The position numbers and the translations under genes were made by a program. Of a stretch of 64,000 nucleotides of DNA, positions 21,062 to 26,755 are shown piece after piece. Origin of the DNA: Ktedonospora formicarum (GTDB lineage Bacteria > Chloroflexota > Ktedonobacteria > Ktedonobacterales > Ktedonobacteraceae); contig NZ_BNJF01000001.1 of the NCBI RefSeq assembly GCF_016587355.1, positions 2,988,501 to 3,052,500 of the forward strand, written 5' to 3'. The stretch's first letter is position 1. Each line of letters begins with the position of its first letter. The notes beneath the pieces are model-generated. The model was not told the origin of the DNA. It made no database searches and worked only from the letters and a program-made list of their open reading frames with translations.

Positions 21062-21120
21062 ATATTGGATGCGAAATTTTCTAACTTGCCTGTCATTATC
21101 CGCTCTGCAGACCTGCGGGT

Positions 21121-21173
21121 AAGGGATATATGGATGGGAAGTAAAGAGACTACTTCCCATCCATATATCCCTT
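21121..21173. terminator. Long perfect hairpin terminator (23-bp stem)
   Basis: AAGGGATATATGGATGGGAA plus GTA (21121-21143) pairs perfectly with 21151-21173 around a 7-base loop, followed by GTCTTTC. It separates alaX from the Rrf2 regulator. Confidence 0.75.
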
Positions 21174-21187
21174 GTCTTTCAATATAC

Positions 21188-21203
21188 AGGCACTAATGTG
21201 CCT
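21188..21203. promoter_or_regulatory. Palindrome GGCACTAATGTGCC upstream of the Rrf2 regulator
   Basis: AGGCACTAATGTGCCT is a 6+4+6 dyad. The identical 14-bp core occurs at 21934-21947 before sufC. It is the likely operator of the Rrf2 regulator. Confidence 0.55.
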
Positions 21204-21259
21204 TTAACAAGGGGGATTTCCTGAATGTTGGAATGTCCTACCAGGTGTATCTCCCCCTG

Positions 21260-21288
21260 TTGACGTATGCTGGCCCAGGTGCTAGAAT
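21260..21288 (+). promoter_or_regulatory. Promoter of the Rrf2 regulator gene
   Basis: TTGACG, 17-bp spacer, TAGAAT. A short dyad CCTA-GTGAT-TAGG follows at about 21293-21305, near the expected transcription start. Confidence 0.6.
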
Positions 21289-21368
21289 ATTTCCTAGTGA
21301 TTAGGTCGGATTAATTTCGTGTAGTGCTGAAGCAGAGGGTAAGAGCATAGAGAAAGGGAGAGACCACA

Positions 21369-21884
21369 ATGTTGCGGGTATCTACAAAAGGCGAGTATGG
21401 TGTACGCATTATGGTCGATCTGGCTCGTCATTATGGTGGCCGCCCCCGTTCACTAACCGACATTTCGCAGGCTGAGAACTTGCCGCTGGCGTATTTAGAG
21501 CAACTCGTCAAACTCTTGCGTGATGCAGACCCGCCGCTGGTAGCCAGTACGAGAGGTGCTCATGGCGGTTACCGTCTCAGTCGCAATCCTGCTGAGATTA
21601 CCATGGGAGAAGTTGTACGCGTACTTGAGGGACCGATCTCGCCTATGATCTGCGCGACTGAAGGTGAGATGAGTCAGGTGTGCGGTTTCATGGATTCGTG
21701 TAAGACCAAGTATCTCTGGGCGAAAGTTCGGGATGCCGTGGCCCAGACGCTGGATTCGATTACTCTGGAGGAGTTAGTTGCTCATACAGAGAATTCTCAG
21801 CAGGTGGGACAATTTATCGCGCTCTCCGATATCCATGTTGGTCTTAACGCAGATGTCTCAGCTGCCGCGCTTACAACGGAATAA
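21369..21884 (+). CDS. Rrf2-family regulator, IscR/SufR-like
   Basis: 171 residues. A winged HTH (MLRVSTKGEYGVRIMVDLA ... STRGAHGGYRLSR) is followed by three cysteines, C95, C105 and C111, placed as the Fe-S ligands of IscR-type proteins (E. coli C92, C98, C104). By family it would sense the Fe-S status of the cell and control cluster assembly. Its position 334 bases upstream of sufC, and the identical palindrome before both, fit this role. GAAAGGGAG precedes the ATG. Confidence 0.88.
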   Translation: MLRVSTKGEYGVRIMVDLARHYGGRPRSLTDISQAENLPLAYLEQLVKLLRDADPPLVASTRGAHGGYRLSRNPAEITMGEVVRVLEGPISPMICATEGEMSQVCGFMDSCKTKYLWAKVRDAVAQTLDSITLEELVAHTENSQQVGQFIALSDIHVGLNADVSAAALTTE

Positions 21885-21932
21885 TGTTTTAAGACACAAG
21901 CGGCGGCTAGCGCGAATTTCTTAGATGGTTCC

Positions 21933-21948
21933 TGGCACTAATGTGCCA
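21933..21948. promoter_or_regulatory. Second copy of the GGCACTAATGTGCC palindrome, upstream of sufC
   Basis: TGGCACTAATGTGCCA, with a core identical to the site at 21189-21202. A TATAAC at 21971-21976 follows at a distance that would put the palindrome over a -35 region. Confidence 0.55.
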
Positions 21949-22166
21949 GTCACTCTGGCATTGCGGATTTTATAACGTGTCTGGGTTTCCAAATAAGGAG
22001 CGCGTTGTTATTCAGGGCTCATCGCGGCCATTTGCTCTGCCAGTATTTATGCCGATAGTTATCAAAGTAGCCGGGATATGGCTTCATGGAGCGGTATCCA
22101 AACTTTGTGGCTGTATAGATAGTAAACCTACGAAGAGATAAAGCGGATCATTTGAAAATTATCATG

Positions 22167-22196
22167 TGGACAGTGATGCGCTCTTTCGACTATAGT
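22167..22196 (+). promoter_or_regulatory. Promoter-like sequence directly before sufC
   Basis: TGGACA, 18-bp spacer, TATAGT, ending 22 bases before the sufC ATG. GAGGAAGG lies between them as the SD. Confidence 0.5.
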
Positions 22197-22218: not shown

Positions 22219-23043
22219 ATGGGATCTGAACTCGTTATAAAGAACCTTCATGCGAATATTGAAGGTAAGCCAATTCTGCGTGGCGTCGATCTCGTTGTAA
22301 ACCAGGGTGAGGTGCACGCGTTAATGGGACCTAACGGGTCCGGTAAGAGCACGCTGGCGAACGTCATCATGGGCAACCCCAAGTATGAAGTTACGGATGG
22401 TGAGATCTGGTTTAAGGGCGAGAACATTCTTGAGTATTCGCCTGACCGCCGCGCGCGTATGCGCCTCTTCCTGGCTTTCCAGTATCCCATGTCTATCCCT
22501 GGTGTGAGCGTAGCGAACTTCCTGCGCCGCTCGTTGGAGGCTGTGCGTGAGGGAAACAAGCCTCTCGAAGAGGGTGAGAATCCAACAGGCAAAATGGGCA
22601 AACGCAGAACAGTTCCTCCTGGTGAGTTCCGCCGCCTGCTGCAAGAAAAGATGAAGCTGTTGAAGGTTGATAACAGCTTTATTAACCGCTCAATTAACGA
22701 TGGTTTCTCGGGTGGCGAGAAGAAACGCGCTGAGATTCTTCAGATGGCTTTGCTAGAGCCTGAAATCGCTCTGATGGATGAGACCGACTCTGGTCTTGAT
22801 ATTGACGCGCTCAAGATTGTCTCCGAGAGTGTGAACGCGCTACGCGGGCCCAACCTCGGTGTTCTGCTTATCACGCACTATCAGCGAATGCTTAACTACA
22901 TCACTCCTGATTACGTGCATGTAATGTATCAGGGACGTGTCATTAAGTCAGGTGGTAAGGAACTGGCTCTTGAGCTTGAGGAGAAGGGCTACGAGTGGCT
23001 GAAGGCTACCGTGTCTGAGAATGGAGTGACCACGAATGCTTAA
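22219..23043 (+). CDS. sufC: SufC, ATPase of the SUF Fe-S cluster assembly machinery
   Basis: 274 residues, an ABC-type ATPase without membrane domain. It has Walker [10 protein letters not shown], the signature [19 protein letters not shown], Walker [16 protein letters not shown] and the switch His in [10 protein letters not shown]. SufC drives conformational change of the SufB/SufD scaffold in the cytoplasm. It is first in a run with sufD, sufS, sufU and a Rieske gene. Its last codons overlap the sufD start by eight bases, indicating translational coupling. Confidence 0.95.
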
Positions 23044-24493
23044 TGCTCTAACTACAGGTTTCACAAAAGATGCGCTTGTTGAACTGTCGCGTCAAAAAGG
23101 GGAACCTGAGTGGATGCTACAGAAGCGCTTGCAAGCCTGGGAAGTATACGAAAAGACACCTGCACCCCTGGGCCGTCGTGGCGATCTGGGTACACTCCAG
23201 GCTCTCTCTCGCTTCAAATTTCAACAACTGAGCCCCTTTGTTCCTGCGCAGGACAAGGCATTGCCCGAGGCTATTCAACAGTCTCTACAGGAATCCCTGG
23301 TCAACGAGCGCTCGGGGCTGATTGTTCAGCATAACTCGTCAGTGGTCTATACACAGCTTAATGAGGACCTGAAAGCGAAAGGCGTGATCCTGACAGATCT
23401 GGAGAGCGCTGTACGTGAGTATCCTGAGCTTGTGCAAGAGTACTTTATGACGAAGTGCGTGCCTGTCGATGCAAGCAAGTATACGGCACTGCATGCAGCC
23501 TTCTGGACTGGTGGTGTTTTCCTCTACGTTCCCGAGGGTGTGGAAATTGAGGCTCCGATTCTAGCCCAAGTCTGGATTGATAGTTCGGCTGCTGCGATTT
23601 TCTCCCATTCGCTGGTGATCGCGTCTTCTCAGAGCAGTGTCCGCTTTGCGCAGGAGTTTACCTCAAGCGTTGAGAGCGAGAGGCCCAGCCTGGTCAGCGA
23701 CGTGGCTGAGGTCTTCGCCAAGCGCGAGGCAATTGTTGAGTTTAGCAATCTGCAAGACCTGGACCAGCATACCTGGAATATCACGAACAAGAATGCCATC
23801 CATGAGAATGACTCTAGCGTTACTTTTGTAATGGCTGACCTTGGTGCGAAGCTGAATCTGAATACCATCGGGGCTGGTTTGCATGGTAATGCCAGCGCGG
23901 CGGAACTGGTAGGCGTCTTCTTCACCGACCACGATCAGCGCTATGCCATTAACTCCCTCTCGGATCATGTTGGGCTCTCAACCAATGCCGAGACGATGAT
24001 TAAGGGCGTGTTGACTGACGAATCACGTGTTGAGTTTGATGGCATGATTCGCATTCGCCCGAAGGCGCAGCAGACAGCATCTTTCCTGGCGGCTCATGGT
24101 CTGCTACTGAGCAAGAAGGCGCGTGGCGAGTTCATTCCTGGCCTGGAAATTGGCGCGAATGATGTCAGCGCTAGCCATGGTGCTACCAGTGGGCAGATTG
24201 ACGAGGAACAACTCTTCTACCTGATGGTGCGTGGTATCGCGCGCCCAGAGGCCGAGCGCATTATTGTGCAGGGTTTCTTTGAACCAGTCTTACAGCGCAT
24301 CCCGTTGGAGAATCTACGTATCCGCTTGCGTCGTAGCATCATCTCGCGCATGAGTGGTGAGTATGAGACTGAGGCCGATACTTGGGTTGATGCTCAGGAG
24401 CGCTGGGAGATTGAAGGAGTCGATGAGGGGGCTATCTACCTGGATGACTCTACACGGCCCAAGTCGGATGAGATCGAGTTGGACGAATACTAG
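23036..24493 (+). CDS. sufD: SufB/SufD family scaffold protein, SufD-like
   Basis: 485 residues with the beta-helix core of the family. The C-terminal signature [26 protein letters not shown] resembles SufD (SHGAT-GQ-DEE) more than SufB. By family it forms a complex with SufC on which clusters are built, and SufB normally carries the essential cysteine. No second SufB-type gene is in the window, so it is either elsewhere or this protein works without a partner. It overlaps sufC by eight bases. A 21-bp hairpin follows, so sufS may be transcribed separately or by read-through. Confidence 0.88.
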
Positions 24494-24559: not shown

Positions 24560-24692
24560 AGGCTAATGGCGAGATGCAAGCAGGCTTGATACATTCTTGA
24601 CGATAAACCGACTCTCTAGAGAGAAGTTAGGGGTTCTGGTTTTCGGAGAGGAAGTGGATCCGGTTGCACTCTCTGCCATGCGAGGAAGTAAT

Positions 24693-25970
24693 ATGGCAAC
24701 ATCTGAGAAGCCAAGAGAAGAGATGGTTACAACACACCGTGCGCGTTCCGCTGCCGAGATTCGCGCTGATTTTCCTATACTCGCGCGTCAGGTACATGGA
24801 AAGCCACTGGTCTATCTCGATAGCACGGCCAGTTCGCAGAAGCCTCAATCGGTTATTGAGACCATGAATACCTATTACCAGTCTTATAACGCCAATGTGC
24901 ATCGTGGCGTATATGAGATCAGTGAAGAAGCTACCGCGGCTGTTGAGCGGGCTCGCGTTAAGATTGCTCGCTTTATTCACGCGCGCCATAGCAAGCAAGT
25001 TATCTTTACACGCAATACGACCGAGAGTATCAATCTGGTTGCGTATAGCTGGGGAAACGCTAATATCCACTCTGGCGACCTGATCGTGCTGACCGAGATG
25101 GAGCATCATAGCAATCTGGTTCCCTGGCAGTTGCTTGCTCAGCGTACGGGGGCGCGCCTGGAGTTTGTGCCGGTGACTGAGGATGGCCTGCTGCGTCAGG
25201 ATATCTACGACGAGTTGCTAACATACCATCCTCGTCTGATTGCTTTTACGCATATGTCGAATGTTCTGGGAACTATTAATCCAGTGCAGGAGATGATTGC
25301 CCGGGCGCATGCCGTCGGCGCGACAGTGCTGGTCGATGGCGCGCAGAGCGTTCCACATCTGCCGGTCGATGTGCAGGCGCTTGATGCTGATTTTTATTGC
25401 TTTAGTGGCCATAAGATGCTTGGTCCGACAGGTATTGGTGTGCTCTATGGGAAGCGTGAACTGTTAGAAGCGATGCCACCTTTTATGGGTGGTGGGGATA
25501 TGATCCGTACCGTCAAGTTGCAGGCTTCAACCTGGAATGATTTACCCTGGAAATTTGAGGCTGGTACCCCCGCGATTGCCGAGGCGATTGGTCTTGGAGC
25601 CGCTGTTGATTATCTCAACGACCTGGGAATGGAGTGGGTAATCGAGCATGAGCATGAAATTACGGCTTATGCTCTGGAACGCCTGCAAGAGATTCCTGGT
25701 CTGACGATCTATGGACCCAGAGCCCTTGAGCAGCGGGGAGGTGTCATCTCCTTTACCTTGGGCGATATTCATCCTCATGATCTGGCCTCGATTCTGGATC
25801 AAGAGGTTGGTGTCGCGATTCGCGCAGGCCATCATTGCGCGCAGCCCCTAATGGAGCGCTATGATGTGGCCGCGACCGCACGAGCCAGCTTCTATGTATA
25901 CACGACGACAGAAGATGTCGATGCTCTGGTGCAGGGCTTGCAGAAGGCGCAGCAAATCTTCAGCTTCTAG
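24693..25970 (+). CDS. sufS: Cysteine desulfurase, SufS type
   Basis: 426 residues from the ATG at 24693, which has GAGGAAG just upstream; the frame is open back to a TTG at 24597. This class V aminotransferase takes sulfur from cysteine for Fe-S clusters. The PLP Lys is in FSGHKMLGPTGIG (about K241) and the persulfide-forming Cys in RAGHHCAQP (about C382), the arrangement of group II desulfurases. N-terminal signature: VYLDSTASSQKP. It works with SufU, the gene following 44 bases downstream. Confidence 0.94.
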   Translation: MATSEKPREEMVTTHRARSAAEIRADFPILARQVHGKPLVYLDSTASSQKPQSVIETMNTYYQSYNANVHRGVYEISEEATAAVERARVKIARFIHARHSKQVIFTRNTTESINLVAYSWGNANIHSGDLIVLTEMEHHSNLVPWQLLAQRTGARLEFVPVTEDGLLRQDIYDELLTYHPRLIAFTHMSNVLGTINPVQEMIARAHAVGATVLVDGAQSVPHLPVDVQALDADFYCFSGHKMLGPTGIGVLYGKRELLEAMPPFMGGGDMIRTVKLQASTWNDLPWKFEAGTPAIAEAIGLGAAVDYLNDLGMEWVIEHEHEITAYALERLQEIPGLTIYGPRALEQRGGVISFTLGDIHPHDLASILDQEVGVAIRAGHHCAQPLMERYDVAATARASFYVYTTTEDVDALVQGLQKAQQIFSF

Positions 25971-26014
25971 TATTCTCAGTAGAGCTTCCTTTGGGGCTTG
26001 GAGACTATATACAT

Positions 26015-26428
26015 ATGGCAATGGATTATTATCGCGAATATATACTGGATCATTATCGCAATCCACGCAACTTTGGCACACTGGAGAATCCCGATGTACA
26101 TTCGGAAGATTCTAATCCACTCTGTGGCGATCAGCTTGCTATGGATCTGATCGTCGAGAATGGGCACGTTGCGGAAGTACGTTTCAAGGGGCGTGGATGC
26201 GCTATTAGCCAGGCGTCGGCATCGATGCTCTCCGAAATGATTGAGGGCAAGCCGATTGAAGAGGTTGTGCAGCTTGGCAAAGAGAATGTGCTGGAGGAGC
26301 TGGGTATTCCTATTAGTCCCGCACGTACCAAGTGTGCCTTCCTCTCGTTGCGTGTACTACATCGTGGTCTGGCAATCGCAGGCTATGAGCATCCCAATCT
26401 CGATGAGGACGAGGAAGAGGATGTGTAA
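26015..26428 (+). CDS. sufU: SufU, sulfur-transfer partner of SufS
   Basis: 138 residues from the ATG at 26015 (GGAG about 11 bases upstream); a TTG at 25991 is less likely. It is IscU-like, with ligands C37 and D39 (PLCGDQ), C62 (GRGCAIS) and C107 (RTKCAFL), the zinc site through which SufU accepts persulfide from SufS. The insert between the second and third Cys is longer than in IscU, as is usual for SufU. The acidic tail EDEEEDV is odd but harmless. The Rieske gene starts three bases after the stop. Confidence 0.93.
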   Translation: MAMDYYREYILDHYRNPRNFGTLENPDVHSEDSNPLCGDQLAMDLIVENGHVAEVRFKGRGCAISQASASMLSEMIEGKPIEEVVQLGKENVLEELGIPISPARTKCAFLSLRVLHRGLAIAGYEHPNLDEDEEEDV

Positions 26429-26431
26429 GGT

Positions 26432-26755
26432 ATGATGGAGTATTACAAGGCGGCGGAGGTATCTGATGTGCGGGAGGGGGAGCTCCATCCCGTAGAGGTT
26501 GATGGTGAGCCTGTGTGCCTGGCAAAGATCGATAATCAGATCTTTGCCTTTACCGACAACTGCACACACATCAGTGGTCCCCTGAATGAGGGGGATTTCG
26601 AGGGCTGCATGGTAACCTGTCCCTGGCATGGTGCGCAGTTCGATGTGCGAACGGGTAAGGTCTTGCGCGGCCCCGCGCGCCAGGATCTCCATACGTATCC
26701 TGTGAAGATCGAAGGTGAGAGTATTTTTATTGGTCTGCCACCCAACGAAGAATGA
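26432..26755 (+). CDS. Rieske-type [2Fe-2S] ferredoxin-like protein
   Basis: 107 residues, soluble. The two Rieske boxes are DNCTHISGPL (C44, H46) and TCPWHGAQFD (C63, H66). Stand-alone Rieske ferredoxins of this length serve as electron donors, or as NirD-like subunits. Its position right behind sufU suggests it is co-expressed with the SUF system, perhaps supplying electrons or being a client; that is inference. It ends at a bidirectional hairpin that starts at the stop codon. Confidence 0.9.
   Translation: MMEYYKAAEVSDVREGELHPVEVDGEPVCLAKIDNQIFAFTDNCTHISGPLNEGDFEGCMVTCPWHGAQFDVRTGKVLRGPARQDLHTYPVKIEGESIFIGLPPNEE

Follow-up and report, generated by a model that had tools for sequence, protein, structure and literature searches.

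Fe-S cluster assembly is controlled by Rrf2-family regulators in several described systems. RisR of Myxococcus xanthus is an Rrf2 repressor of Fe-S assembly operons that controls both isc and suf; it is a member of the IS6 group and binds GAC-N7-GTC, an imperfect palindrome flanked by AT-rich sequence (PMC9973013). The structure 4cic represents the IscR of Thermincola potens (PMC4618611). The papers searched contain no experimental work on Fe-S regulation in Chloroflexota or Ktedonobacter; an earlier in silico prediction in RegPrecise, which includes a Chloroflexi collection, is possible. The locus analyzed here lies in a 64,000-nucleotide stretch of the Ktedonospora formicarum genome (the window), in which a gene for an Rrf2-family regulator (rrf2) stands ahead of suf genes (Table 1). 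A sequence-only reading of the window had proposed that the regulator controls its own gene and suf through a 14-nucleotide palindrome, GGCACTAATGTGCC, present before rrf2 and again before sufC.

Table 1. Features of the alaX–rrf2–suf region, with positions counted from the first nucleotide of the window
Feature	Position	Strand	Remarks
Perfect 23-bp inverted repeat, 7-base loop	21121..21173		directly after alaX
GGCACTAATGTGCC, copy 1	21189..21202	+	follows alaX and precedes the rrf2 promoter; conserved operator ~105 bp farther downstream
rrf2 promoter, -35 box TTGACG	21260..21265	+	conserved in relatives
rrf2 promoter, -10 box TAGAAT, extended (TG before), spacer 17	21283..21288	+	conserved
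Palindromic operator ATATTTCCTAGTGATTAGGTCGGATTAAT	21287..21315	+	overlaps both -10 box and expected start; proposed Rrf2 site
Operator core TCCTAGTGATTAGGTCGGA	21292..21310		19 bp
Rrf2-family regulator, 171 aa, C95/C105/C111	21369..21884	+	PF02082, 1.6e-35
GGCACTAATGTGCC, copy 2	21934..21947	+	49 bp past the rrf2 stop codon, ~270 bp before sufC
Hairpin between rrf2 and sufC	22055..22122		single copy in the genome
Promoter-like match	22167..22196		in the rrf2–sufC gap
sufC, Fe-S assembly ATPase	22219..23043	+	TIGR01978 above cut-off
sufD-type SufBD protein	23036..24493	+	TIGR01981 above cut-off; TIGR01980 (sufB) below
sufS, cysteine desulfurase	24597..25970	+	TIGR01979 above cut-off
sufU	25991..26428	+	TIGR01994 above cut-off
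Rieske-type ferredoxin, end of the suf cluster	26432..26755	+	PF00355

The protein belongs to the Rrf2 family by two models, with 122.6 bits for PF02082 (cut-off 30) and 112.4 bits for TIGR00738 (cut-off 73.3), whereas it falls below the cut-offs of the more specific equivalogs. It scores 95.4 bits against the 207.55 set for IscR (TIGR02010) and 134.2 bits against the 195 set for CymR (NF047409), although the latter is the highest-scoring NCBIfam equivalog, and the RirA and NsrR equivalog cut-offs are not reached either. CymR has no cluster cysteines and controls cysteine metabolism. The three cysteines noticed in the sequence-only reading are present here, in the arrangement C-x9-C-x5-C. Compared with the IscR ligand set (Cys92, Cys98, Cys104, His107) the first spacing is longer; a lysine occupies the His107 position, which makes cluster binding less certain. 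The regulator probably works like an IscR and is not classed as an IscR proper.

The observation that Fe-S assembly genes lie behind the regulator was likewise borne out, although the operon in the window has no clear sufB, as its SUFBD gene passes the cut-off as sufD only. The gap between rrf2 and sufC measures 16–37 bp in eight relatives, so that one promoter and one operator suffice there for both autoregulation and suf control. The corresponding gap in the host is 334 bp long and contains the promoter-like match, making read-through of the operon less certain in this organism, and a separate, added sufC promoter is possible. The same gap holds the single-copy hairpin. Four Ktedonobacter genomes share its outer stem (ATAGTTATCAAAG ... 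CTTTGTGGCTGTAT) but differ in the sequence of the inner stem; no compensatory changes were seen in this hairpin.

We compared the upstream regions of rrf2 at 18 orthologous loci in Ktedonobacteria, where the regulator has 73–87% identity. The promoter in the window is of the sigma-70 type and its -10 box is overlapped by ATATTTCCTAGTGATTAGGTCGGATTAAT, in which a CCTAGT core begins 76 bp ahead of the rrf2 start. All 18 loci have a TTGACG-N17-TAGAAT-like promoter (in close variants) followed directly by ATATCCTAGT-N4-AGGTCGGATTAA, and the operator block is identical in the three congeners. Among 29 family genomes, 27 have a match to ATNTCCTAGT-N4-AGGTCGGAWTAA on the rrf2 promoter, with all 13 genera represented; the reversed pattern gave two hits, attributed to chance. 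Conservation extends to a wider sample of the phylum, in which 27 of 29 Rrf2 loci keep at least 14 of the 22 operator positions and the site persists just past the -10 box (as in TATATCCGAGTGAATTAGTCGGAATAT and TAAATCCGAGTAAATTAGTCGGGTTTA). The 19-bp core has a single occurrence in the host genome, even when three mismatches are allowed. Judging from this pattern of conservation, the operator of the regulator is likely to be ATATTTCCTAGTGATTAGGTCGGATTAAT and not GGCACTAATGTGCC, and an appealing but wrong operator call is thus replaced by a candidate regulon of three promoters.

The proposed site had also been described as unlike the IscR boxes of E. coli, which is wrong for the conserved operator. 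Against the type-1 consensus the rrf2 site in the window matches at 16 of 25 positions, the sufB and apbC sites described below at 15 and 17, and the sites of some other Chloroflexota at 19–21. Random 60-mers gave a mean best score of 13.8, with 17 reached in 1.8% and 19 in 0.05% of them. The window site at 16/25 is therefore unconvincing as a type-1 box when taken alone, and it is the conservation that carries the case. A type-1-like box that overlaps the regulator's own promoter is an IscR-like trait.

Sites of the same kind were found at two unlinked genes. Weaker matches of the scan of family genomes pointed to the gene for a protein that joins DUF1858 to an Mrp/ApbC ATPase, of the Fe-S carrier type. 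At all 26 family loci with a placed start, the apbC/mrp promoter has an extended -10 box that bears ATATC(T/A)GAGT-N4-A(G/A)GTCGGAATTA or a closely similar sequence, and the site in the host genome reads TATAATAATCGGAGTAAATAGGTAGGAATT. The host gene itself (C1:3674524-3675554, minus strand) has a one-base frameshift in a C run near residue 303, and the gene of one relative is broken nearby, at another base; the frameshift may be a sequencing error or real decay. The true sufB stands alone at C1:3444793-3446190 (minus strand), with AAAATCCGAGTAGCCAAGTAAGGATTA behind its TTGACA-N17-TATAAT promoter. Of the 26 sufB loci in the family, 23 match a strict expression for this site and two more have a slightly changed form. 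The right half-site at sufB has one extra base (GTAAGGATTA vs GTCGGATTA); because the half-sites differ, a position matrix built from rrf2 sites only missed both sufB and apbC. Congeners and some relatives have extra sufB copies, about 90–92% identical, and the two that were examined have no upstream operator.

Merging the three forms gives a degenerate pattern, WWTCSKAGTNNNNARGTMRG, that is matched exactly at the rrf2, sufB and apbC promoters and at no other place in the genome; as the pattern was derived from these sites, the count of three demonstrates specificity rather than discovery. The motif adjoins the -10 box at rrf2 but begins several bases farther downstream at sufB. This variable spacing points to a protein site and not to a feature of the core promoter. 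A one-mismatch site at C3:1064230 lies on a TTGACA promoter before a gene for a membrane protein of the Pfam family ABC_cobalt, with a divergent ABC ATPase gene starting on the other side. This membrane protein gene is a possible fourth target.

Direct observation extends to the conservation of the motif, to where it lies on the promoters and to the kinds of genes behind it; binding by this Rrf2, cluster occupancy and the sign of regulation are inferred. The circuit of autoregulation and suf control suggested by the sequence-only reading is supported by the comparative evidence, but not its operation through the 14-mer, which is not conserved while another site is. We consider it very probable that the regulator represses its own rrf2-suf unit, sufB and apbC in the manner of IscR, acting through ATATTTCCTAGTGATTAGGTCGGATTAAT-type sites. 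Rrf2, most likely as a cluster-loaded dimer, would bind over its own -10 box and block RNA polymerase, repressing rrf2 together with the downstream sufC, sufD, sufS, sufU and Rieske genes; the operator covers the expected start as well as the -10 box, which fits such repression by occlusion. Through promoter sites of this kind, the unlinked Fe-S genes sufB and apbC/mrp would come under common control with it, and under Fe-S shortage the cluster would be lost and all three units (rrf2-suf, sufB and apbC/mrp) derepressed.

A genome that encodes about ten Rrf2 proteins offers other candidates, and the conserved motif could be real and yet be bound by another Rrf2 paralogue or some other factor instead of the product of the neighbouring rrf2. 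We regard this as improbable, given that the site is fixed at this particular rrf2 promoter throughout the family and recognizable in much of the phylum sample, whereas the other Rrf2-paralogue loci scanned have no rrf2-type site.

The 14-mer pair itself is as reported, with two exact copies, both on the plus strand, and no third in the window. A search of the whole genome (10,667,638 bases) returned the same two exact copies only, and no copies with one mismatch exist in these 10.67 Mb. Allowing up to two mismatches yields 53 places including the two exact ones (51 with two mismatches), compared with 38 for the reversed control, which puts the two-mismatch copies near background and slightly above the control. 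In each copy, arms of 5 bp enclose an asymmetric TAAT; the next pair outward is complementary in both copies but not the same (A...T in one, T...A in the other), and copy 2 extends to 7 bp. Palindromic 14-mer pairs were absent from 100 order-1 Markov simulations of the window. Exact hairpin words repeated within 1 kb are nevertheless not rare in the actual genome, where 859 kb contained 10 of them, nine with at least 14 bases and some from tRNA genes or tandem repeats. This amounts to about one per 100 kb, or an expectation of about 0.7 such pairs per 64-kb window. Intergenic, single-copy pairs with wide spacing are less common; the present pair is mildly unusual as a repeat and only weakly beyond chance.

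The sequence-only reading had itself counted lack of conservation upstream of orthologous regulators as grounds against its proposal. Upstream of the orthologous rrf2 and sufC genes GGCACTAATGTGCC is absent in 18 of 18 loci, with best matches of 8–10 out of 14 that speak against a degenerate site, and the exact word is missing genome-wide from all 28 other family genomes, including the three congeners. On these grounds it is rejected as the operator. A DNA search with the alaX–sufC stretch against the congeners matched rrf2, its promoter and the hairpin before sufC, while both parts that hold the 14-mers (query positions 1–194 and 781–986) were unmatched; the copies thus sit in lineage-specific intergenic DNA. 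No other shared palindromes flank rrf2 in the relatives. A mobile or repeated element was also considered and dismissed, as the flanking sequences each occur once in the genome and the exact word just twice; the surroundings score 14/25 as an IscR box, which is the random level; and neither a terminator nor an Rfam RNA was found at the 14-mers. Most probably, the two copies are a neutral repeat peculiar to this species, with no supported function.

Each copy stands after a stop codon and could act in RNA, as a hairpin following alaX and rrf2 with a stem of 6–7 bp and a UAAU loop, for instance as a 3'-end stabilizer or processing site. The copies do fold well on their own (-9.7 and -14.1 kcal/mol, with z near -3 and -4). 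Such a role is nonetheless unlikely, as the 14-mers have no T tract and hence are not terminator-like, a terminator-like inverted repeat already precedes copy 1 behind alaX, and no relative has equivalent hairpins. That inverted repeat is probably the alaX terminator; matches to miRNA-named Rfam families at 21111-21185 are artefacts of this perfect repeat. Least likely of all is that the pair forms an extra operator of this lineage, used by this Rrf2 or some other factor alongside the conserved one: the identity is exact over 14 bases, the outer pair has changed yet remains palindromic, and the copies are intergenic on either side of rrf2 and found nowhere else in the genome, but the word is absent from all relatives and from the sufB and apbC promoters, is unlike the conserved motif and no better than random as an IscR box, sits some 100 bp ahead of the start in copy 1 and far from sufC in copy 2, and has comparable repeated hairpin words for company in the genome.

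With ATATTTCCTAGTGATTAGGTCGGATTAAT as the preferred operator, these results suggest that an IscR type-1-like box is apparently used far outside Proteobacteria, and that the ApbC/Mrp carrier is a predicted co-regulated target. It is conceivable, though we put this forward tentatively, that a Chloroflexota-wide Rrf2 lineage with C-x9-C-x5-C and without the IscR histidine runs a compact Fe-S regulon through such boxes, comprising rrf2-suf, the unlinked sufB, apbC/mrp and perhaps a cobalt-type transporter, and represents an undescribed branch of the IscR strategy. The frame of the motif, GAG or TAG-N7-GTC, is the same as the GAC-N7-GTC of RisR and is shared with the core of the IscR type-1 box; site A of Pseudomonas aeruginosa, AATCCTGAGTAATTTGATCGGTCTT, is close to it in form (PMC3899308). 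Among solved structures, the closest sequence to the regulator is 4cic (2.2e-33), from a phylum other than that of the host, and the cysteines of the regulator align with substituted positions of the deposited chain; the second closest is 2y75 (3.2e-31), which links it to CymR of Bacillus subtilis and Staphylococcus aureus. With IscR of E. coli and P. aeruginosa the system has in common a three-cysteine Rrf2 protein encoded first in an Fe-S assembly operon, with a type-1-like box overlapping its own promoter. It differs from them in the C-x9-C-x5-C spacing, in the lysine that replaces His107 and in a TIGR02010 score far below the cut-off, as well as in the genes concerned, with suf in place of isc and apbC/mrp as a predicted target.
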